From Zhongshania aliphaticivorans (GTDB lineage Bacteria; Pseudomonadota; Gammaproteobacteria; Pseudomonadales; Spongiibacteraceae): a stretch of 64,000 bases of DNA. The position numbers and the translations under genes are program-made. The stretch is from positions 4,062,501 to 4,126,500 of the forward strand of contig NZ_CP014544.1 in assembly GCF_001586255.1 (NCBI RefSeq). The letters run 5' to 3'. Under the pieces are notes generated by a model. It did no database searches. It was not told where the DNA came from and worked only from the letters and a program-made list of their open reading frames with translations. This document shows, piece after piece, positions 13,573-36,858 of this stretch (its first letter is position 1; every line of letters starts with the position of its first letter).

Positions 13573-14751
13573 ATGAGCTTACGTAAGCCAATTCCCCGCC
13601 TTAAAGAAGACAATTATTCCGAGGCCGCCGCCAAACAACGGCGGGAATTTATTGAGGCCGAAACCGGGGCCAGCCTAAAACACACCGGCCACTACTCCAT
13701 TGATCCAAAGGTAGTTGAGGGCAATGCCGAAAACTTTATTGGCGTGGTGCAAATGCCTCTTGGGGTTGCCGGGCCCTATTTAATTAATGGTGAGCACGCC
13801 CAAGGGGTTTTCTATGTGCCCATGGCAACCACCGAAGGCACCCTCATTGCGTCGTACAGTCGCGGCATGCGCGTTATTTCTGAATCTGGTGGCGCCACAG
13901 TTACGGTAACGGGCGAATCTATGCAGCGCGCGCCACTGTTTGAATTTGCCAGCGCCCGCGAAGCCCTGCATTTTTCCCAGTGGCTTGAGCAAGAACTTCC
14001 TGCCATTCGCGCCCAAGCTGAAAGCACCACCGCCATTGGCAAGCTGCAACATATTCAAAGCTGGGTCATTGCCAATAAATTATTCACCCGCTTTAACTAC
14101 AGCACCGGTGACGCCGCTGGCCAAAACATGACCGGCAAGGCCACCCACAAAGCCTGCCAATGGATACTCGGTAATTACCCCGGCGTGATTGAAAACTTCT
14201 CGCTCTCCTGCGGTATCGAAACTGACAAAAAGCACTCGCACATGAACCTTTTACACAGTCGCGGCAAAAAGGTCGTGGCCGAAGCCACCATCAGCAAAGA
14301 CGTACTTAAAGACCTCATGCGCGCAGATCCTGAGCGCATGGTACGCCTGCGCCAACGCACGATACTCGGTGCTATTTTGGCGGGTTCAGCCTACAACGGC
14401 CCACACTCGGCAAACGGCATTGCCTCCATGTTTATCGCCACCGGCCAAGATGAGGCCAATGTCGTGGAATCCCATACCGGCATCGCCTTTATGGACCTCA
14501 CTCCGGCGGGGGATTTGTATTACTCAGTGACACTGCCCTCCATCATTTGCGCCAGTTATGGCGGCGGCACCGGCCTACCCACCCAGCGCGAATGCTTAGA
14601 AATGATGGACTGCTACGGCCAAGGCAAGGCCCGCAAATTAGCCGAAATTATTGGCGCCACGGTACTCGCTGGCGATCTTTCGCTGGCCGCCGCCATCGTC
14701 TCTGACGAGTGGGTATCGAGCCACGATCAACTCGGCCGCAACCGCCCGTAA
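13573..14751 (+). CDS. Hydroxymethylglutaryl-CoA reductase, class I-like
   Basis: A 392-residue HMG-CoA reductase with all four catalytic elements: Glu88 in MATTEGTL, Lys in TDKK (217-220), Asp293 in ATGQDEANV and His384 in SSHDQLGRNRP. ENFIG and VPMATTEG match class I (eukaryote/archaeal-type) enzymes rather than the PMVVEEPS of class II enzymes. The reaction interconverts HMG-CoA and mevalonate with NAD(P)H. No other mevalonate-pathway gene is visible. Pairing with a CoA-transferase (3-bp gap) and a symporter suggests a catabolic or salvage role (mevalonate to HMG-CoA) rather than isoprenoid synthesis, which most gammaproteobacteria do through MEP. AAGAGATAACG precedes the ATG as a modest RBS. 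Confidence 0.9.
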   Translation: MSLRKPIPRLKEDNYSEAAAKQRREFIEAETGASLKHTGHYSIDPKVVEGNAENFIGVVQMPLGVAGPYLINGEHAQGVFYVPMATTEGTLIASYSRGMRVISESGGATVTVTGESMQRAPLFEFASAREALHFSQWLEQELPAIRAQAESTTAIGKLQHIQSWVIANKLFTRFNYSTGDAAGQNMTGKATHKACQWILGNYPGVIENFSLSCGIETDKKHSHMNLLHSRGKKVVAEATISKDVLKDLMRADPERMVRLRQRTILGAILAGSAYNGPHSANGIASMFIATGQDEANVVESHTGIAFMDLTPAGDLYYSVTLPSIICASYGGGTGLPTQRECLEMMDCYGQGKARKLAEIIGATVLAGDLSLAAAIVSDEWVSSHDQLGRNRP

Positions 14752-14754
14752 GCA

Positions 14755-15975
14755 ATGAGCAACACCATGACCACAAGCACAGCCAACACCGGCCCTTTAC
14801 AGGGTATTCGCATATTAGAATTGGGGCAGCTCATCGCGGGGCCGTTCACTACCGCCATGCTCGCCTATTTTGGTGCCGAGGTAATCAAAATCGAAGCCCC
14901 CGGTATTGGCGACCCCATTCGCCGCTGGCGCAGCATGAAGGGCGACACGTCGCTGTGGTGGTATAGCATTGGCCGCAATAAAAAGTCGGTAACCCTTGAT
15001 TTGCGCCACCCCGAGGGCCAAGCCATTGTTCGCGACCTCGCTAAACAGTGCGATGTACTGGTGGAGAATTTTCGCCCCGGTGTGATGGAAGCCTGGCAGC
15101 TCGGCCCCGACGACTTAAAAACCGATAACCCCAATTTGGTTTACACCCGTATTTCCGGTTACGGCCAAACCGGCCCCTATGCCGACAAGCCTGGCTTTGC
15201 CTCGGTATGCGAAGGCATCAGTGGCTTTCGTCATTTAAATGGTTTCCCCGGTGAAGCCCCGGTCAGACCCAACCTTAGTCTCGGCGACAGCATCGCCTCG
15301 CTGCACGCCATCATCGGCATTTTAATGGCCCTTAACGCGCGCGAGCGCGGCCTCCACAAAGGGCAGGTCGTCGACGTAGCGCTCTATGAAACCATGTTCA
15401 ATATGCTGGAGTCCGTCGTACCCGAATACGCAGAAGAGGGAATTATTCGGCAAGCCTCTGGCACTACCCTCACCGGCATTGTGCCCACCAATACCTATCG
15501 CTGTAGCGACGGCAAATACGTGATTATTGGCGGCAATGGCGACTCTATTTTCAAGCGCCTAATGAATGCCATTGGTCGCGATGATTTTGCCAAGGACCCG
15601 GCCATGAGTGACAACGCTGGACGCGTTATTCACCAAGAAAAAATCGACACCGCAATTGCCGATTGGTGTGCCACCCAAACCATCCAATCCACTATCGAGC
15701 AATTAGAAGCGGTGCGGGTGCCCGCCGGGCCAATTTACAATGCCCAAGACATGGCCGAAGACCCACACTTCCAAGCCCGAGATTTATTTGAAAAAGTTGA
15801 GGTAAACGGCGATACCCTAACTATTCCCGGCATGGTGCCAAAATTAGTCGGTACGCCCGGCAGCACACAATGGCCTGGCCCAAGCTTGGGACAGCATACC
15901 GACGAGGTTTTAAGCCAATTATTGGCGTTTAACGAAGAGCGCATAACAGCGCTTAAAGAAGACGCGGTAATTTAA
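14755..15975 (+). CDS. CaiB/BaiF family (class III) CoA-transferase
   Basis: A 406-residue CoA-transferase. N-terminal motifs include IRILELGQLIAGPFTTAMLA, VIKIEAPG and NKKSVTLDLRHPEG. The catalytic Asp is Asp178 in LSLGDSIASLHAIIGIL. The overall pattern recalls the SUGCT-like branch, which moves CoA from succinyl-CoA to glutarate or 3-hydroxy-3-methylglutarate. That assignment is by resemblance only, but it fits the upstream HMG-CoA reductase well: together they would connect free hydroxymethylglutarate, HMG-CoA and mevalonate. The start overlaps the end of the HMGR gene region closely (stop, GCA, ATG), implying translational coupling; MTTS at 14767 is an alternative start. A strong hairpin at the stop codon ends the operon. 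Confidence 0.88.
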   Translation: MSNTMTTSTANTGPLQGIRILELGQLIAGPFTTAMLAYFGAEVIKIEAPGIGDPIRRWRSMKGDTSLWWYSIGRNKKSVTLDLRHPEGQAIVRDLAKQCDVLVENFRPGVMEAWQLGPDDLKTDNPNLVYTRISGYGQTGPYADKPGFASVCEGISGFRHLNGFPGEAPVRPNLSLGDSIASLHAIIGILMALNARERGLHKGQVVDVALYETMFNMLESVVPEYAEEGIIRQASGTTLTGIVPTNTYRCSDGKYVIIGGNGDSIFKRLMNAIGRDDFAKDPAMSDNAGRVIHQEKIDTAIADWCATQTIQSTIEQLEAVRVPAGPIYNAQDMAEDPHFQARDLFEKVEVNGDTLTIPGMVPKLVGTPGSTQWPGPSLGQHTDEVLSQLLAFNEERITALKEDAVI

Positions 15976-16015: not shown

Positions 16016-18595
<2,580 letters not shown>

Positions 18596-20468: not shown

Positions 20469-21785
20469 TCATTCCTTTTGCAGCAAACCCAGCTTGCGGT
20501 AAAGTGATCGCAAACTAATGCCCGCTATTTTTGCCGCCTGATTTTTATCGCCGTGACAATACTCAAGTAAATCATTGAGATACTGCGCTTGTTGGGTTTT
20601 CAAATCGGGCCACTGCTCAGTCTGAGCAACAGTCTGCAATGGCGCTGCATCCAGCAGACACTGCGCCAGAATTTTCACATCAATAATATTCGAGTGCGCA
20701 AAAATTGTCGCCCGCTCTAACACATTGCGTAATTCCCGCACATTACCCGCAAAATGGCAGCCACTGAGTAGTTTAATGCCAGAGTCGGTTAAGCGATAAT
20801 TTTCGTCTGGACTGAGTTTACCGAGAATGGATTTAGCAATAATACCCACGTCTTCGCGGCGCTCGCGCAGTGGCGGCAACACAATGGGAAAGGCGTTAAT
20901 CCGATAATAGAGATCTTCTCGGAACGCCCCTCGGGCAAGCTGTTCTTTTAAATTTTTGTGGGTGGCACAAATCAAACGGAACTGGGCGCGCTTAAGCTGG
21001 GTACTGCCCACCGCGCGATAGCTGCCCGTTTCAATCAAGCGCAGTAATTTAACCTGCATACCCAGTGGCACATCGCCGATTTCGTCCAAAAAGAGGGTGC
21101 CGCCTTCAGCATTCTCCAACAAGCCTGGTTTATTACTGACCGCGCCGGTAAATGCGCCTTTAACGTGACCAAATAACTCGCTCTCGAATAAGGTTTCGGT
21201 GAGGCCGGCGCATTCCACCGTCACCATAAGATGCTTATGACGAGGGCTGGCCTCGTGAATCGCCTTAGCGGCCAACTCCTTGCCCGTGCCCGACTCACCC
21301 ATAAGAAGCACCGAGGTATCGCGTCTGGCAACGAGGTTAATCATATCAACCAAGCTATTAAACGCCGGGCTGCGCCCCACCATTTGCTGGGTGCTAAATT
21401 CGGCACTGGCAATCGTAACGGGTCTTAAAATTTCGACAAAATACCGTAACTCACCGTCGTCGCCGCGAATCGGCAACATTTCAACATCAACATGCTCCTT
21501 GCCCCGCGGTGTACTATGAATATGCAGCACGCGCTCTTTGGCACCAGAGCTTTTACATGCAAGCAACGGACAGCTTTCACCGGCTTGGTCACAAGGCACC
21601 CGGTAGCCGTGGGAAACTTCATAGCAATGGGCGCCACGATCAACTTCAATCTCGCCAAAGGTTTCGCGGTAGCGCTCATTTGTCGCCAAAATTTCATAAT
21701 TTGCCGACACTAAAATCGCGGGATCACTGTAGCCGTCCAGCATCCGCGCCAAGCCTTTATCAGTATCACTTGCAATCAACTGCAT
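20469..21785 (-). CDS. fisR: FisR-type sigma-54-dependent activator (sulfane-sulfur sensor)
   Basis: A 438-residue bacterial enhancer-binding protein. Residues 1-120 form a PAS-like sensory domain. Residues about 130-360 are the AAA+ domain with Walker A ([18 protein letters not shown]), the sigma-54 contact motif GAFTGA, Walker B ([11 protein letters not shown]) and the arginine finger region. The end is a Fis-type helix-turn-helix ([21 protein letters not shown]). In the sensory domain Cys54, Cys65 and Cys72 have the same 11/7 spacing as the Cys53/64/71 that I recall as the persulfide-sensing cysteines of FisR. The divergent operon contains a persulfide dioxygenase, supporting this. The start is ATG 21785; the frame is open to 21830. 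Confidence 0.85.
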
Positions 21786-21797
21786 GATCTTGCCAAA

Positions 21798-21862
21798 TTT
21801 GTCAAAAAAGTTTGCCAATAATGACAACAAAGCGCGTGCTTATCGAGCCTAATTTTGACAAA
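21798..21862. promoter_or_regulatory. Candidate upstream activator sites for the FisR-type regulator
   Basis: Between the divergent fisR and cydA genes, TTGTCA at 21799-21804 and TGACAA at 21822-21827 and 21857-21862 recur. The outer pair is extended as TTTGTCAAAA (21798-21807) and TTTTGACAAA (21853-21862), which are perfect reverse complements. They lie about 75-140 bp upstream of the sigma-54 promoter, the usual position for enhancer-binding proteins. Assignment to FisR is inferred. Confidence 0.5.
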
Positions 21863-21933
21863 CCACTCAAAGAAAATTAGATACTACTTATAAAACAGCA
21901 ACTTAAGTACAGCTAAGTGCGGCATGCTCGCCG

Positions 21934-21949
21934 TGGCACAGCTATTGCT
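21934..21949 (+). promoter_or_regulatory. Sigma-54 (-24/-12) promoter of the cydAB-pdo-sulP operon
   Basis: TGGCAC-N5-TTGCT matches the consensus TGGCAC-N5-TTGCW at every defined base, with GG (21935-21936) and GC (21947-21948) correctly 10 bp apart. Transcription should start near 21960, giving a leader of about 60 bases before the cydA ATG at 22024. The divergent gene encodes a sigma-54 activator. Confidence 0.88.
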
Positions 21950-22023
21950 GTTTAGGCACACAGGGCCATAATCGTAATCCACTCGCCAATCTTGGTAATA
22001 GCATCTCTTTTGGGAGCGCAGGC

Positions 22024-23394
22024 ATGAATTTCGACCCCTTTGTACTGGCACGCATTCAATTTGCCACCAATATGAGTTTTCATATTCTCTTTCCCGCCAT
22101 ATCTATTGGTCTTGCGTGGATCCTGCTATTTTTCCGCCTGCGCTACACGCTAACCGGCGACAAGGCTTGGGAATATGCCTATTTATTTTGGGTAAAGGTC
22201 TTCGCACTCACCTTTGCGATGGGCGTGGTGTCTGGTATTACCATGAGCTTTCAGTTTGGCACCAATTGGCCCGGGTTTATGGAAAAGGCCGGGAACGTCG
22301 CAGGCCCGCTGCTCGGTTACGAAGTGCTGACGGCCTTCTTTTTAGAAGCCTCCTTCCTCGGCATTATGCTGTTTGGCAAAGATCGTGTATCCAACCGCCT
22401 ACATTTAATTAGCACCTTTTTAGTCGCCTTCGGCACTACCTTGTCGGCATTCTGGATCCTCAGCCTAAATTCTTGGATGCAAACCCCAAGCGGTTATCAT
22501 TTAGAAGAGGGCGTGGTGATGGTCGACAGCTGGATAGCAGTGATTTTCAACCCCTCCTTCCCTTATCGCTTCTTCCACATGCTAGTTGCCTCGGTACTCA
22601 CCAGCGCCTTTTTAGTGGCGGGGGTCAGTGCCTGGCGGGCACTGAAAAACGTTGATGGCCCAGCTACGTGGAAAGTAATGAAAACCGGTGTCATCATTGC
22701 CGCCGTATTAACGCCTTTGCAAATTTTTATCGGCGATCTTCACGGCCTTAATACCTTAGAACATCAGCCCGCAAAAATCGCCGCAATGGAGGCTATTTGG
22801 GACACCGACCAAGCAGTGCCTTTTACGGTATTCGCCCTGCCGGACGAAGCCAGTCGCAGCAACCGGTTTGCCGTAGAGGTACCCTACGCTGGCAGCCTAA
22901 TTTTAACCCATGATCCCCATGGCAAAGTGCAGGGTTTGAACGACTTTAAAGGCGAGCATCCGCCAGTTGCCATGGTATTTTGGTCCTTTCGCGTAATGCT
23001 CGCTATGGGTGGTCTAATGCTACTCACCGCGTGGATCAGTGCTTGGCAATTTCGCGGCCATCATCAGCCCAACAAGCCGATGCTCCATGTTTTATCGGCT
23101 ATGGCATTCTCTGGCTGGATCGCAGTTCTCGCCGGCTGGTATGTAACTGAAATTGGCCGCCAGCCGTGGATTGTCACCGGCGTTTTAACAGTGAACGACG
23201 TCGCGGCCGATCACAGCAGCGCCACCCTCACCGGTACATTATTTGGCTATGTCGCGCTTTATGTGTTTCTGTTGGGCTCTTATATTGCCGCCCTGCGCCA
23301 CATGTCGAACAAGCCCGCGGCCTCCTTAGGAATGATGAATTTACCGAGCCGCAACAGCGCTGGCGATACATCGCCACAGAACCGGGGGCACTGA
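22024..23394 (+). CDS. cydA: Cytochrome bd-type quinol oxidase subunit I (CIO type)
   Basis: A 456-residue polytopic inner-membrane subunit. The haem ligand His in RIQFATNMSFHILFP (near residue 20), the second in RFFHMLVAS, the GRQPW motif near residue 378 and the preceding quinol-loop region are recognisable. The protein is shorter than E. coli CydA (522) because the C-terminal Q-loop insertion is absent, as in the CioA / cyanide-insensitive group. It oxidises quinol and reduces oxygen without pumping protons; bd oxidases are known to resist sulfide and cyanide. GGGAG precedes the ATG. It is first of an operon with cydB (3-bp gap), under a sigma-54 promoter. Confidence 0.93.
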   Translation: MNFDPFVLARIQFATNMSFHILFPAISIGLAWILLFFRLRYTLTGDKAWEYAYLFWVKVFALTFAMGVVSGITMSFQFGTNWPGFMEKAGNVAGPLLGYEVLTAFFLEASFLGIMLFGKDRVSNRLHLISTFLVAFGTTLSAFWILSLNSWMQTPSGYHLEEGVVMVDSWIAVIFNPSFPYRFFHMLVASVLTSAFLVAGVSAWRALKNVDGPATWKVMKTGVIIAAVLTPLQIFIGDLHGLNTLEHQPAKIAAMEAIWDTDQAVPFTVFALPDEASRSNRFAVEVPYAGSLILTHDPHGKVQGLNDFKGEHPPVAMVFWSFRVMLAMGGLMLLTAWISAWQFRGHHQPNKPMLHVLSAMAFSGWIAVLAGWYVTEIGRQPWIVTGVLTVNDVAADHSSATLTGTLFGYVALYVFLLGSYIAALRHMSNKPAASLGMMNLPSRNSAGDTSPQNRGH

Positions 23395-23397
23395 ACA

Positions 23398-24390
23398 ATG
23401 GAATATTGGCTACCAATTATTTATATGGGCATTATGGGCTTGGCGCTGCTCATTTACGTGATGCTAGACGGCTACGATCTCGGCGTGGGCTTATTGCTGC
23501 CACTGGCGGAAGAAGACGAAAAAGACATGATGATCGCCTCCATTGGCCCCTTCTGGGACGCCAATGAAACTTGGATTGTACTGGGTGTTGGCATTTTATT
23601 AATCGCATTCCCGCTTGCCCACGGCATTATTCTTAGCGGCTTGTATTTGCCCGTCACCATCATGCTCATGGGTTTAATGCTGCGCGGGGTGGCCTTTGAC
23701 CTGCGGGTAAAAGCGGGCGACCACCATCGCGGCCGTTGGAATAAGGCTTTTTTTGCTGGGTCCTTAATTGCCTCAACAGCCCAAGGCTGGATGCTCGGCG
23801 CCTACATCACCGGCTTGCAAGACAACATAACCAGCCTGTTATTTTCGGCGCTCATTGCCATGACCTTACCCGCCCTGTATTTAATATTAGGCTGCGGCTG
23901 GCTGCTAATGAAAACCGAAGGCGCATTATTAGATAAGGCCATCAGCTGGGGCCGCATGGCAATCTGGCCCATGGGGCTTGGCCTATTTATGGTCTCGGTG
24001 GCCACGCCCATGGTCAGCCCAGCTATTGCCGCGAAATGGTTTACCCTACCCTACACCATCTTACTGCTACCCATTCCGCTAAGCTGTATCATCTGTTATG
24101 TGGCAATTTTTATTCTGTTGGGCAAACCCAATATTCTTCGCCACGGCTACGGCTGGCTAATTTACGCCGCCACCGCGGTAATTTGCCTTATGGCGAGCCT
24201 GGGCTTGGCTTACAGTATTTTTCCCTACATTATTATTGGTCAAATGACGATTTGGGACGCCGCCGCCTCGGTTAAGTCGCTGCAATTTACCTTAGTCGGT
24301 GTTGTTATCACCCTGCCCGCGATTTTGTTCTATACCTTTTTTATGTACCGCATTTTTCATGGCAAAGCCACGGCGCTTTCCTATGAATAG
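23398..24390 (+). CDS. cydB: Cytochrome bd-type quinol oxidase subunit II
   Basis: A 330-residue membrane protein with the CydB start (MEYWLPIIYMGIMGLALLIYVMLDGYDLGVGLLLP) and the conserved GPFWDANETWIVLGVG segment. About eight hydrophobic helices follow; the length is normal for the CioB/CydB family. It pairs with CydA in the inner membrane. No CydX-like small ORF is recognisable in the 60 bp to the next gene; only a 15-codon ORF (24404-24451) whose stop overlaps the next ATG is seen, and I do not call it a gene. Confidence 0.93.
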   Translation: MEYWLPIIYMGIMGLALLIYVMLDGYDLGVGLLLPLAEEDEKDMMIASIGPFWDANETWIVLGVGILLIAFPLAHGIILSGLYLPVTIMLMGLMLRGVAFDLRVKAGDHHRGRWNKAFFAGSLIASTAQGWMLGAYITGLQDNITSLLFSALIAMTLPALYLILGCGWLLMKTEGALLDKAISWGRMAIWPMGLGLFMVSVATPMVSPAIAAKWFTLPYTILLLPIPLSCIICYVAIFILLGKPNILRHGYGWLIYAATAVICLMASLGLAYSIFPYIIIGQMTIWDAAASVKSLQFTLVGVVITLPAILFYTFFMYRIFHGKATALSYE

Positions 24391-24450
24391 TGTATTTAAA
24401 ATAATGATGACCATAAAAAATCCGCAACGCGTTACAACCGGAGATGCCTA

Positions 24451-25344
24451 ATGAACACCATTGCGTTTACACCCAATCTAAAACAAATACCGGTGGTCAT
24501 TCCCTTCTTTGACGAACCCACCAATACCTTTTCCTATGTTGTGCAAGACCCGACATCCAAGGCCTGCGCAATTATCGATTCGGTTATGGAAATAGACTAC
24601 GCCGCAGGACATTTAGGCTTACAAGGCGCAGATAAAATTATTCAGTATATTCGCGAACAACAACTCGATTTACAGTGGATTATTGAAACCCACGTGCACG
24701 CCGATCATTTGTCGGCAGCGCCCTATATCCAAGGCCAGATTGGCGGCAAAATCGGTATTGGCGAACACATTATTACGGTACAAGAAACCTTCGGTAAAAT
24801 TTTTAACGAAGGCAGTCAGTTCCAGCGCGACGGCTCTCAGTTTGATCAACTCTTTAAAGACGGCGACCAATACACCGTGGGCAATTTGCAGTGCCACGCA
24901 TTGCACACCCCTGGCCACACACCGGCGTGCATGACCCATATTATGGGTAATGCAGCCTTTGTGGGCGACACCTTGTTTATGCCCGACGGCGGCAGCGCCC
25001 GCGCCGACTTCCCCGGCGGCGACGCTAGGGTCCTCTACCAATCAATTCAGCGCTTACTGTCACTACCCGATGAACTGCGTTTGTTTATGTGCCACGACTA
25101 TATGCCCAATGGTCGCGACGTGGAATTTGAGACCACCGTTAAACAACAGCGCGACAATAATATTCACGTGCACCGAGGCATAAGCGAAGACGAATTTGTC
25201 GCCATGCGAGAACAACGCGACGCCACCTTAGGCATGCCCAAGCTCATCATTCCAGCGCTACAAATCAATATGCGCGCCGGACATTTGCCCGAAGCCGACA
25301 GCAATGGCACTGTGTATCTCAAAGTGCCCTTAGATACGCTATAA
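24451..25344 (+). CDS. Persulfide dioxygenase (MBL-fold, Blh/PDO type)
   Basis: A 297-residue metallo-beta-lactamase-fold protein with the metal motif HVHADH at 81-86, HTPGHTPACM and VGDTLFMPDGGSARADFPGG. The ARADFPGGD segment and the CHDYMPNGRDVEF end are typical of the Blh / type II persulfide dioxygenases, which oxidise glutathione persulfide to sulfite using one Fe(II). Location is cytoplasmic. It is third in the operon after cydAB and before a SulP transporter, facing a FisR-type regulator, which supports a role in sulfide/persulfide detoxification. CCGGAG lies before the ATG. Glyoxalase II activity is the main alternative but fits the motifs less well. Confidence 0.88.
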   Translation: MNTIAFTPNLKQIPVVIPFFDEPTNTFSYVVQDPTSKACAIIDSVMEIDYAAGHLGLQGADKIIQYIREQQLDLQWIIETHVHADHLSAAPYIQGQIGGKIGIGEHIITVQETFGKIFNEGSQFQRDGSQFDQLFKDGDQYTVGNLQCHALHTPGHTPACMTHIMGNAAFVGDTLFMPDGGSARADFPGGDARVLYQSIQRLLSLPDELRLFMCHDYMPNGRDVEFETTVKQQRDNNIHVHRGISEDEFVAMREQRDATLGMPKLIIPALQINMRAGHLPEADSNGTVYLKVPLDTL

Positions 25345-25387
25345 ATTAGCTATGCTAAACACGGCGACATAAGGCTAAGGAATCCCA

Positions 25388-27148
25388 GTGCAAAAAACGA
25401 CGCTTAAATCTTACTTTCCCATTCTGAGCTGGGCAGGCGAATACAACCGCGATGTGCTATTTAGCGATCTGCTGGCGGCATTAATCGTTACCATCATGCT
25501 AATTCCCCAGTCCCTCGCCTATGCTCTGCTGGCCGGGCTGCCACCGCAAATGGGGTTGTACGCCAGTATGTTGCCACTGGTCGCCTACGGTATTTTTGGC
25601 ACTAGCCGCACGCTGTCGGTGGGGCCGGTGGCCGTGGTCTCGCTAATGACCGCATCGGCCATCGGCCATATTGCCAGTGCCGGCAGTGTGAGCTATATCG
25701 AAGCCGCCTTATTGCTGGCCTTTTTGTCGGGTGTATTCCTGCTCGGCATGGGCTTGCTACGCATGGGCTTTTTAGCGAACTTTTTATCCCACCCCGTCAT
25801 TGCCGGATTCATCACGGCCTCGGGCATTATTATTGCGTTTAGCCAGCTTAAATATATATTGGGCATCAATGCCCATGGCGAAAACCTGTTTGCTCTGCTG
25901 CACTCGCTCTATGCCTCGGTGGCCAATACCAACTTTTATACCGTGGCGGTGGGCTTACCCACGCTGATCTTTTTATTCTGGGTACGCAGCGGCCTTAAAC
26001 CGCTGCTAGTACGCACCGGGCTCAGTGACAAAGCCGCGGCCATGCTAGCGAAGACCGGCCCCGTGCTCGGCATTATTGCCACCAGTTATGCCGCCTACTA
26101 TTTTGAACTTGGCAGCAAAGGTGTCGTCTTGGTCGGTGAGGTCCCCACCGGCTTGCCCAGTTTTCAAATGCCCAAACTCGGCCACGACGCCTGGCGTGAA
26201 CTCATGTTGTCAGCAGTGTTTATATCCATTATCGGTTTTGTTGAGTCAGTATCGGTGGGCCACACCCTGGCCGCCAAGCGCCGCCAGCGCATTGTGCCAA
26301 ACCAAGAACTGATCGGTCTTGGCGCCGCCAATATTGCCGCGTCATTCTCTGGCGGCTATCCGGTTACTGGTGGCTTCGCGCGCTCGGTGGTTAATTTTGA
26401 TGCCGGTGCCGTCACCCCAGCGGCCGGTATGTTTACCGCCGTGGGCATTGCCGCCGCCGCCATGTATTTCACCCCTTACTTGGCCTACTTACCCAAGGCC
26501 ACTTTAGCGGCGACCATTATCGTCGCGGTTTTATCGCTAGTGGATTTTTCCATACTCAAAAAATCCTGGGCTTATGCCCGCAGCGACTTTATCGCCGTGG
26601 TCACCACACTTGTCGTGACCTTAATTATGGGTGTAGAAACTGGCGTCGCCTGTGGCGTTTTCGCCTCGCTCGCCCTGCACCTATACAAAACCTCGGTGCC
26701 CCACATGGCCGTGGTTGGCGAGGTTCCGGGCACCGAACACTACCGTAATATAAATCGCCACAAAGTCATTACCCACAACCATATCCTGTCGCTGCGCATT
26801 GACGAAAGCCTGTACTTTGCCAATGCCGGTTTTATTGAAGACAAGGTTTATGAATTGGTCGACGCCTGCTCTGATATTCAGCACGTTATTTTAATGTGTA
26901 CCGCCGTAAACGAAATTGATTTAAGCGCTTTAGAAGTACTTGAATCGATTAATCTTCGCCTAAAAGACAGTGGCATAAAACTGCATTTGTCGGAAGTGAA
27001 GGGGCCGGTGATGGATGTACTCGCCCATACCGAGTTTATAAAGCACCTGAGCGGCCAGGTATTTTTGTCTCACCACTTGGGAATACAAAAAATTCTAGCT
27101 AAGCAGAAAAGCGCTGACACCCAAAAGGTTCAAGACTGGAATATTTAA
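25388..27148 (+). CDS. SulP-family anion transporter with STAS domain
   Basis: A 586-residue SulP/SLC26 transporter starting at a GTG preceded by AAGGA. The membrane domain begins SDLLAALIVTIMLIPQSLAYALLAGLPPQMGLYASMLP and includes the GTSRTLSVGPVAVVSLM motif (the SLC26 anion site) and GGYPVTGGFARSVVNFDAGAVTP. From about residue 440 a cytoplasmic STAS domain follows (HNHILSLRIDESLYFANAGF, NEIDLSALEVLESI). Members move sulfate, sulfite, bicarbonate or other anions. As last gene after a persulfide dioxygenase it may export the sulfite/sulfate produced; direction and substrate are inferred. A 43-bp gap separates it from the dioxygenase gene. Confidence 0.9.
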   Translation: MQKTTLKSYFPILSWAGEYNRDVLFSDLLAALIVTIMLIPQSLAYALLAGLPPQMGLYASMLPLVAYGIFGTSRTLSVGPVAVVSLMTASAIGHIASAGSVSYIEAALLLAFLSGVFLLGMGLLRMGFLANFLSHPVIAGFITASGIIIAFSQLKYILGINAHGENLFALLHSLYASVANTNFYTVAVGLPTLIFLFWVRSGLKPLLVRTGLSDKAAAMLAKTGPVLGIIATSYAAYYFELGSKGVVLVGEVPTGLPSFQMPKLGHDAWRELMLSAVFISIIGFVESVSVGHTLAAKRRQRIVPNQELIGLGAANIAASFSGGYPVTGGFARSVVNFDAGAVTPAAGMFTAVGIAAAAMYFTPYLAYLPKATLAATIIVAVLSLVDFSILKKSWAYARSDFIAVVTTLVVTLIMGVETGVACGVFASLALHLYKTSVPHMAVVGEVPGTEHYRNINRHKVITHNHILSLRIDESLYFANAGFIEDKVYELVDACSDIQHVILMCTAVNEIDLSALEVLESINLRLKDSGIKLHLSEVKGPVMDVLAHTEFIKHLSGQVFLSHHLGIQKILAKQKSADTQKVQDWNI

Positions 27149-35585: not shown

Positions 35586-36858
35586 CATTGCTGTCCCATA
35601 AATATTCACATCAAGCATAGTTGCGGATGAATGTTGTTGTCGATTGGCTCCGGTGGATCACCTCTTAGCAAAGGCAGCAACTCTCTGCGCTCAAATAAAT
35701 TGAGCTGCAAAAGGCGAATCATTTGCTGCAGGCTGCGATCAATTTGGCTACTGAACTTAATCCAAGCCAGCAGTAGATAGGCGCACATAGCAATCCAAAT
35801 CTGGGTCATGACCGCGTTCTTGGACGTGCCGACAAAGGATTTGATTTTCAGGTTTTGCTTGATGCATTTGAAGAACAATTCAATTTTCCAGCGGGATTTG
35901 TAGATATCAGCAATGGTCTTGGCGGCAAGATGGAAGTTGTTGGTCAGAAACACATAGTGCTTGCCGGTTTCAGCATCACGGAAGCCGATCCGGCGCAAAG
36001 GAATTGGGCAAGTCTTTGCCTTTGCCCCGGTGATCAGTATGGTCTGATCACATGTCAGGCCTTTGGATTTAATGACCTCGCGGCGTTCGATAATACGGTA
36101 CGTGGCATTACGTTTTTGTCGAGTAACGAAAAATATTCCTTTGTCATTCAGGGCCTTAAACCATGTGTAATCGGTATAGGCACGATCCATTACCACAATG
36201 CTATCAGCAGGGAATTCAAGGACGCGACCGACAGTGACATCGTGCTTTTTGCCATCGCTAATGCTGACAAAGCTGGGAAGTAGTCCGTCATGATCTAGGC
36301 CAATATGCACTTTTACTGCTCCTTTGGCACGACGGAATTTTGCCCAAGGGAACACGGAAAGACACAGGTCAATAGTTGTGGAATCGAGAGAATACAGTTT
36401 GTTCCCAAAGCGAAATCCATGTTTGGGCGCGACGCCTTGGCAGCGAGAAAGCAGTTTATGAAACAGCGCTTCGTAAAGCGTATAGGGCTGACTTTCATTC
36501 ACGCGGGAAAGAGTGCTTCTCGACACATTACCGGTACCGAGGTGGTAAAGCCTGGCCGCTTGGGCAGACAGATTGCTGACGATATCGCGTAAGCTGGATC
36601 GGCCAGAAAATTGCGCCAAACTCAGCGCGACGAACTGAGACCAGCGCGACATTTTGCGCAGTTTTTGACCCTCGTGATGCTGTTTGGCGAGATTCTCAAA
36701 TTCATGTCTCGATACGAGTTTTAACAATTGAGAAAATACCGTGTTATGATGTGCCAAGGCTTGAATCTCCCTGTTTTTACAGTGTTTGGTCGCACATCCA
36801 TTGTAACAACTTGTTGGGATTCAAGCCCTTTTTATGTCAGATTTATGGGACAGCAATG
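35586..36858 (-). mobile_element. Intact IS4-family insertion sequence (1273 bp)
   Basis: Terminal inverted repeats of 18 bp, CATTGCTGTCCCATAAAT at the left and its exact reverse complement at the right, bound the element. They are flanked by the direct repeat ACATTAAAT (35577-35585 and 36859-36867), a 9-bp target-site duplication in the IS4 range. The only gene inside is the reverse-strand transposase. Perfect ends and duplication show a recent insertion; it sits in an AT-rich, gene-free stretch. Confidence 0.93.
35606..36757 (-). CDS. IS4-family transposase
   Basis: A 383-residue DDE transposase. The N-terminal DUF4372-type segment (FSQLLKLVSRHEFENLAKQHH) is followed by catalytic Asp in LYSLDSTTIDLCLSVFPWA, the second Asp in IVVMDRAYTDYTWF and the YREK-type motif YKSRWKIELFFKCIKQNLKIKSF carrying the Glu. 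It starts at a TTG with GGGAG upstream, inside the right inverted repeat. The frame is intact, so the element may be active. Confidence 0.95.
   Translation of the reverse strand: MAHHNTVFSQLLKLVSRHEFENLAKQHHEGQKLRKMSRWSQFVALSLAQFSGRSSLRDIVSNLSAQAARLYHLGTGNVSRSTLSRVNESQPYTLYEALFHKLLSRCQGVAPKHGFRFGNKLYSLDSTTIDLCLSVFPWAKFRRAKGAVKVHIGLDHDGLLPSFVSISDGKKHDVTVGRVLEFPADSIVVMDRAYTDYTWFKALNDKGIFFVTRQKRNATYRIIERREVIKSKGLTCDQTILITGAKAKTCPIPLRRIGFRDAETGKHYVFLTNNFHLAAKTIADIYKSRWKIELFFKCIKQNLKIKSFVGTSKNAVMTQIWIAMCAYLLLAWIKFSSQIDRSLQQMIRLLQLNLFERRELLPLLRGDPPEPIDNNIHPQLCLM

Follow-up and report, generated by a model that had tools for sequence, protein, structure and literature searches.

Why should a FisR-type regulator in Zhongshania aliphaticivorans face genes for a cytochrome bd oxidase, and what might such an operon do when it lacks a gene for sulfide:quinone reductase (SQR)? 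These questions are raised by a locus in a stretch of 64,000 nucleotides (contig NZ_CP014544.1, positions 4,062,501–4,126,500), which was analyzed at its full length and is referred to below as the window; the genome is a single contig of 4,204,359 bases, with a completeness of 100. Five intact genes were found, i.e., a regulator on the minus strand facing cydA-cydB-pdo-sulP on the plus strand (22024–27148), with positions and strands as in the list of open reading frames except for the start of the regulator. A first-pass annotation, made from the sequence of the window, had named the same five parts, and their coordinates, strands and Pfam domains bore it out. We conclude that the operon is a variant of the FisR persulfide-response operon. 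Judged from sequence, it is likely to be controlled by FisR and dependent on sigma-54, such that persulfide would switch on a sulfide-tolerant oxidase together with persulfide oxidation. Among named relatives, Zhongshania antarctica DSM 25701 (locus L001) is the closest, with 97% identity in the regulatory domain of FisR.

The regulator and its predicted promoter and operators

The regulator gene, fisR (20469–21785, minus strand), encodes a 438-residue sigma-54 activator of the FisR type, comprising a PAS-like domain with Cys54, Cys65 and Cys72, an AAA+ domain with the motif GAFTGA, and a Fis-type helix-turn-helix (Pfam PAS_4, Sigma54_activat and HTH_8). The 11/7 spacing of the cysteines, the AAA+ domain bearing GAFTGA and the Fis-type helix-turn-helix are all traits of FisR sensors, as is a position divergent from a persulfide-oxidation operon with a sigma-54 promoter. 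The FisR identity, with these cysteines and GAFTGA, had been proposed in the first-pass annotation, and it holds. A canonical FisR operon contains both pdo and sqr; here pdo is present and sqr is absent, which weakens the description of the operon as canonical and leaves the membership of the regulator in FisR intact. The gene most likely starts at the ATG at 21785, from which residues are numbered, rather than at the TTG at 21830 given in the reading-frame list, because the conserved palindromes described below fall between 21785 and 21830.

Cys54, Cys65 and Cys72 were retained in all 97 aligned homologs that hold the domain, which was missing from two of the 99 rows; near-duplicates are present among these rows, and two of the cysteines were part of one of the six peptide patterns used to fetch the loci. 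A lack of cysteine conservation, which the first-pass annotation had named as evidence that would count against it, was thus not found. The activator loop read GAFTGA in 86 rows, GSFTGA in 11 and GAYTGA in two. Alignment with FisR, a check suggested in the same annotation, gave 49% identity over 440 positions to the homolog from Cupriavidus metallidurans CH34 (L215), which retains the C-11-C-7-C spacing and is likewise divergent from pdo. The CH34 regulator faces pdo and a stand-alone sqr, the latter absent from the window, whereas the 14 kb examined from CH34 contained no match to CydA, CydB or SulP. In C. pinatubonensis JMP134 the operon content is reportedly FisR-pdo-sqr, as Li et al. are said to have described in 2017. 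FisR of C. pinatubonensis senses reactive sulfur via three conserved cysteines (PMC9774590; this and the other papers identified by PMC number are cited from excerpts).

Upstream of cydA, a −24/−12 element of the form TGGCAC-N5-TTGCT (TGGCACAGCTATTGCT, 21934–21949, plus strand) scored 11 out of 12 against the sigma-54 consensus. No other site in the 64 kb reaches this score on either strand. The element is the predicted transcript start for cydA-cydB-pdo-sulP. Relatives were drawn from loci L001–L080, i.e., the best 80 of 453 FisR-domain loci fetched by the six peptide patterns, and promoters were scored at the 67 loci in which the FisR match was preceded by a CydA or PDO match. Sites with scores of at least 9, 10 and 11 lay 5′ of the first operon gene at 64, 56 and 36 of these loci, whereas randomly chosen places in these loci gave 8.0, 1.9 and 0.7; distances from promoter to gene are approximate, because gene starts were assigned mechanically. 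The conserved site precedes whichever gene leads the operon, pdo or cydA. At three loci (L012, L019 and L030) it lies about 770–800 bp ahead of cydA; at L012 a peroxiredoxin gene stands before cydA.

Two palindromes of the form TTGNCA-N4-TGNCAA lie next to the fisR start, the fisR-proximal copy at 21790–21805 and the second, 22 bp from it, at 21812–21827; both positions are kept in relatives. Ten such sites occur in the genome, versus one for a backward control, and these two form the only close pair spaced by 22 bp among the ten. At least one palindrome, with no more than one mismatch, was found at 67 of 79 loci in a 290-bp stretch around the fisR start, where 0.023 sites per stretch were expected, and of 19 adjacent pairs, 16 were spaced by 21 or 22 bp. 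We infer that the tandem palindromes are FisR operators; because they adjoin the fisR start, they also suggest that fisR is autoregulated. No exact match to the presumed consensus for integration host factor was found between operator and promoter. Sigma-54 control, which the first-pass annotation had proposed, is strengthened by the conserved −24/−12 site and the operator pair, neither of which it had named.

Loss of sqr from the operon

The absence of sqr, stated in the first-pass annotation, was confirmed in the operon and by a genome search. A DUF442-SQR fusion from a congener, whose closest solved structure is human SQOR (E 1.1e-94), found no match in the complete genome of the window species. 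Of 18 genomes from the genus, counting the window's, 16 contained a match to this query, which ran the full length in 15; the two genomes without a match were that of the window and G003, and the match in G016 was confined to the DUF442 part. The gene for this fusion occupies the junction between pdo and sulP in sister species, at loci L002–L007. The window and L001 have in common a short junction instead, which in the window is 43 bp long (25345–25387, plus strand).

Two other explanations for the missing gene were considered. An assembly gap is excluded by the single-contig genome and by the identical junction in Z. antarctica. That the genome carries another sqr outside the operon was rejected: the query search gave no match, and 10 of the 39 places matching Pyr_redox_2, whose N-termini were inspected by eye, were not SQR-like, although a distant SQR could escape the query.

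In a tree of FisR sequences, the window and L001 were sisters (SH-aLRT 99), with the sqr-bearing L002 joining next (99). Because the pair nests among sqr carriers, we conclude from the tree and the gene order that sqr is secondarily lost in the window species and Z. antarctica, and is not replaced; in the ancestral operon, pdo and sulP would have flanked the DUF442-SQR gene. The presence of sqr changes at least three times on the tree, with G016 and L078 lying outside it. The tree was built in quick mode without a mixture model and long branches meet in it (L063 with L051, and L076 with L080); 15 of the 99 rows were omitted, i.e., L163–L172 (apparently for the most part repeats of named Zhongshania species), L182 and L183 (which repeat L176 and L001), and the truncated L031, L057 and L078.

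The arrangement of the 80 FisR loci bears on another explanation, favored in the first-pass annotation, in which the operon is a purpose-built module with bd oxidase and SulP standing in for SQR. The window and L001 contain exactly cydAB-pdo-sulP, with sqr unmatched in the genome, as this idea would predict. However, SQR was found at 60 of the 80 loci; in 49 cases it lay between pdo and sulP (the other 11 had no sulP in the stretch examined), and the SQR part alone was detected in frame at five of the 60 (L016, L055, L057, L076 and L080). The commonest arrangement, fisR<>pdo-sqr-sulP, occurred at 27 loci, where SulP follows sqr and no cydAB was present in the stretch examined; fisR<>cydAB-pdo-sqr-sulP occurred at 13 loci and fisR<>pdo-sqr-sulP-cydAB at six. 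Among the 25 loci with cydAB or cydA, 23 had SQR, located between pdo and sulP at 20, and the two without it were L001 and L012, the latter on a contig that stops within cydA. The check for the same gene order in other genomes, suggested in the annotation, thus found the exact cydAB-pdo-sulP order in L001, while the other cydAB loci mostly keep sqr. Moreover, pdo and sulP occur with neither SQR nor cydAB, as judged at the locus, at L009 (where DUF442 is kept), L018, L077, L078 and L079, so that cydAB appears to be neither the cause of the loss of sqr nor a substitute for it. We therefore regard functional replacement of SQR as extremely doubtful.

Enzymes, transporter and the proposed response

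CydA (22024–23394, plus strand; 456 residues; Pfam Cyt_bd_oxida_I) and CydB (23398–24390, plus strand; 330 residues; Pfam Cyt_bd_oxida_II, E 1.6e-76) have the traits of a bd-type quinol oxidase. The heme-ligand positions H20, H185 and M325 and the GRQPW motif at 378 are present in CydA, with roles that we take to be those of the E. coli enzyme. Aligned with E. coli bd-II, CydA keeps these positions and GRQPW, and its Q-loop is shorter by about 60 residues. No other gene in the genome matched this CydA; three COX1-family oxidases are also encoded there. The bd oxidases of E. coli (PMC4815019) and the cyanide-insensitive oxidase (CIO) of Pseudomonas aeruginosa (PMC10968556), which belong to the same superfamily as the window CydAB, with the ligand positions kept, are insensitive to sulfide; the CydAB of the operon is predicted to be sulfide tolerant as well.

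The pdo product (24451–25344, plus strand; 297 residues; Pfam Lactamase_B) is a predicted persulfide dioxygenase of the PDO2/Blh-dioxygenase type. It matched the Blh model over the dioxygenase part (E 5.4e-117), the 391 bits being under the cut-off of 625 for the full protein, and its solved relatives are 9g8t, 4ysk (E 2.5e-109) and 4efz, with the last two of which it was aligned. The motifs HVHADH at 81, HTPGHT at 152 and GDTLFM at 172 correspond to the metal-binding trait, HxHxDH with His and Asp, of metallo-β-lactamase (MBL) fold proteins of the PDO2/Blh type, and presumably contain the metal-binding residues. SulP (25388–27148, plus strand; 586 residues; Pfam Sulfate_transp and STAS) scored 434 bits against TIGR00815, above the cut-off of 380, as expected for a SulP/SLC26 anion transporter; its best solved relative is the plant sulfate transporter 4.1 (7lhv). 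Pfam and model matches thus agree with the families to which the first-pass annotation had assigned the bd oxidase and the dioxygenase.

Could the shortened operon be what is left of one for sulfide oxidation, decaying and drifting since the loss of sqr and without a function in persulfide metabolism? That sqr has been lost, with parallel losses elsewhere, and that G016 has lost fisR too, would fit this idea. However, dN/dS between the window and L001, i.e., between two species that both lack sqr, was 0.061 for fisR, 0.085 for cydA, 0.035 for cydB, 0.069 for pdo and 0.074 for sulP, which places all five genes under purifying selection, and the catalytic, promoter and operator motifs are intact. 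Decay is thus very unlikely.

The reading that we prefer is a reactive-sulfur response, whose biochemical steps, FisR binding included, we infer from the gene content, the conservation of motifs, promoter and operators, and the loss of sqr. Persulfide or polysulfide would modify Cys54, Cys65 and Cys72 of FisR, which, at the tandem palindromes, would activate RNA polymerase-sigma-54 at 21934–21949 to yield the cydA-cydB-pdo-sulP transcript. PDO would use O2 to convert glutathione persulfide to sulfite, the bd oxidase would sustain quinol oxidation when sulfide or sulfane sulfur blocks heme-copper oxidases, and SulP would move the product anion, i.e., sulfite, sulfate or thiosulfate. Because sqr is lost, the substrate of PDO is probably persulfide that is made in the cell (e.g., by 3-mercaptopyruvate sulfurtransferase, 3-MST) or taken up, rather than made by SQR from sulfide. 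An origin inside the cell would most probably be cysteine metabolism, as the genome has a gene for a 3-MST-like double rhodanese at ∼814.4–815.2 kb. Efflux of the product anion by SulP is plausible by analogy, because the FisR operon of Acinetobacter baumannii contains TauE, a putative thiosulfate/sulfite effluxer (PMC7315123); the sulfite export predicted in the first-pass annotation would be one case of it. Elsewhere in the genome (∼1934.7–1936.1 kb; L211:6691–8058), a protein with MBL and rhodanese parts, resembling 3tp9, may be a second persulfide oxidizer.

Several observations weigh against this reading. The sigma-54 site was missing at three of the 67 loci (L008, L034 and L043) and the palindrome at 12 of 79. 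The CH34 locus had no sigma-54 match with a score of at least 9 in the stretch scanned; since, of the loci examined, it comes closest to the characterized system, the scan evidently misses some sites. Among the sequence features examined, none reveals the substrate of SulP or its direction of transport. The FisR of A. baumannii functions without the regulatory cysteines (PMC7315123), so that Cys54, Cys65 and Cys72 need not be the only sensor. Finally, G016 (L181, G016:C8:287000–302000) retains cydAB-pdo-DUF442-sulP but has neither FisR nor the SQR domain, which implies that these genes can live under other control; this genome was counted as lacking FisR because its only FisR-domain match, in a 1389-residue frame elsewhere, was weak (28% identity, 25.8 bits).

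Cytochrome bd beside FisR in relatives

The link between FisR and the bd oxidase is the point worth testing. In several bacteria cydAB is induced by sulfide, and the excerpt names no regulator in the case of A. baumannii (PMC7315123); a sigma-54 persulfide sensor directly before cydAB, in at least two arrangements, offers a testable answer for marine bacteria. The resemblance to A. baumannii extends to a sigma-54 activator whose neighbors include pdo1 and a putative anion exporter, and cydAB of that species is induced by sulfide. However, cydAB (A1S_1433–1434) lies apart from the FisR operon (A1S_1708–1711) in that species, sqr and TauE are part of the system, and FisR lacks the regulatory cysteines (PMC7315123). 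In the excerpts covered from the 2018–2026 literature on FisR with cytochrome bd, largely open-access papers, no FisR-cydAB operon was described. YgaV of E. coli belongs to a different regulator family and is not a sigma-54 activator. It is also a sulfide-responsive regulator that acts on cytochrome bd genes (PMC11858517).

Across relatives, cydAB leads some FisR operons and ends others, and its presence changes nine times on the FisR tree with gains and losses pooled, a rough count because the tree gave long-branch warnings. Within the genus, 17 of the 18 genomes carry a cydA of the window type no more than 6 kb from pdo; the exception, G017, has no such gene but encodes a distant CydA at another place. 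Among 115 genomes of the order, CydA was detected in 45 (E ≤ 1e-120) and PDO in 57 (E ≤ 1e-60), and the two were within 10 kb of each other in seven, as judged by eye, three of these being in this genus, the window's included. A different arrangement occurs in Pseudoalteromonas xiamenensis and P. piscicida (L216 and L217), where an E. coli-type cydAB operon lies opposite a FisR homolog that shares the cysteine spacing (identities of 49% and 45%), and no pdo match was found in the 14-kb stretches. In P. xiamenensis, cydX and YbgE-family genes are annotated, and cydA and cydB form one 2.7-kb frame annotated as cydB. Neither locus had a sigma-54 match with a score of at least 9, so that FisR control of cydAB in these species is suggested by gene arrangement. 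Operator-like sites numbered two in P. xiamenensis, each with two mismatches, and none in P. piscicida, compared with one with one mismatch and one with two in CH34.

The Pseudoalteromonas loci, together with peroxiredoxin genes adjoining FisR in some relatives, would also suit an account in which FisR is mainly a switch for respiration in low oxygen or oxidative stress, acting through the bd oxidase in response to another signal, e.g., disulfide stress or nitric oxide (NO), with PDO and SulP as passengers. Against this, pdo is the most constant partner of FisR (68 of the 80 loci), the cysteine spacing is that of the CH34 homolog facing pdo-sqr, and the Cupriavidus FisR senses reactive sulfur via three cysteines (PMC9774590). 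We consider this account unlikely and prefer the response to persulfide. More tentatively, it is possible that FisR-type sensors have been wired repeatedly to cytochrome bd, i.e., at the front of a pdo operon, at its far end, or before an E. coli-type bd operon without pdo as in Pseudoalteromonas, and that in the sqr-less Zhongshania pair the switch reads intracellular persulfide and acts directly to re-route respiration, independently of sulfide oxidation. The repeated loss of sqr with retention of pdo and sulP, and here of cydAB too, suggests that intracellular persulfide, rather than sulfide, can be the main load.

Other genes were also observed beside fisR. Peroxiredoxin-type genes with AhpC-TSA and 1-cysPrx_C occur beside it at L012 (1142–1780), L025, L045 and L060 (10485–11138), in Pseudohongiella-like bacteria and Marinomonas, as called by Pfam at L012 and L060 and by eye at the others; they are a possible further target of FisR. 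At L182 (G017), a gene for a TonB receptor and a further gene lie between fisR and pdo, in the place of cydAB in congeners. A FisR-pdo-SQR-sulP locus resembling those of marine gammaproteobacteria was found on a contig titled as a Klebsiella pneumoniae metagenome-assembled genome (L039), which is possibly mis-binned. In Spongiibacter marinus (L037:10340–11515), a gene resembling HMG-CoA reductase, judged by N-terminal likeness, directly adjoins fisR.

Within the window, genes for HMG-CoA reductase and then a family III CoA-transferase lie at 13573–15975. Near the operon, at 16016–18238, is a peroxidase-family gene of 740 residues with two peroxidase stretches, resembling catalase-peroxidase, and a DDE transposase with DUF4372 is encoded at 35606–36757.

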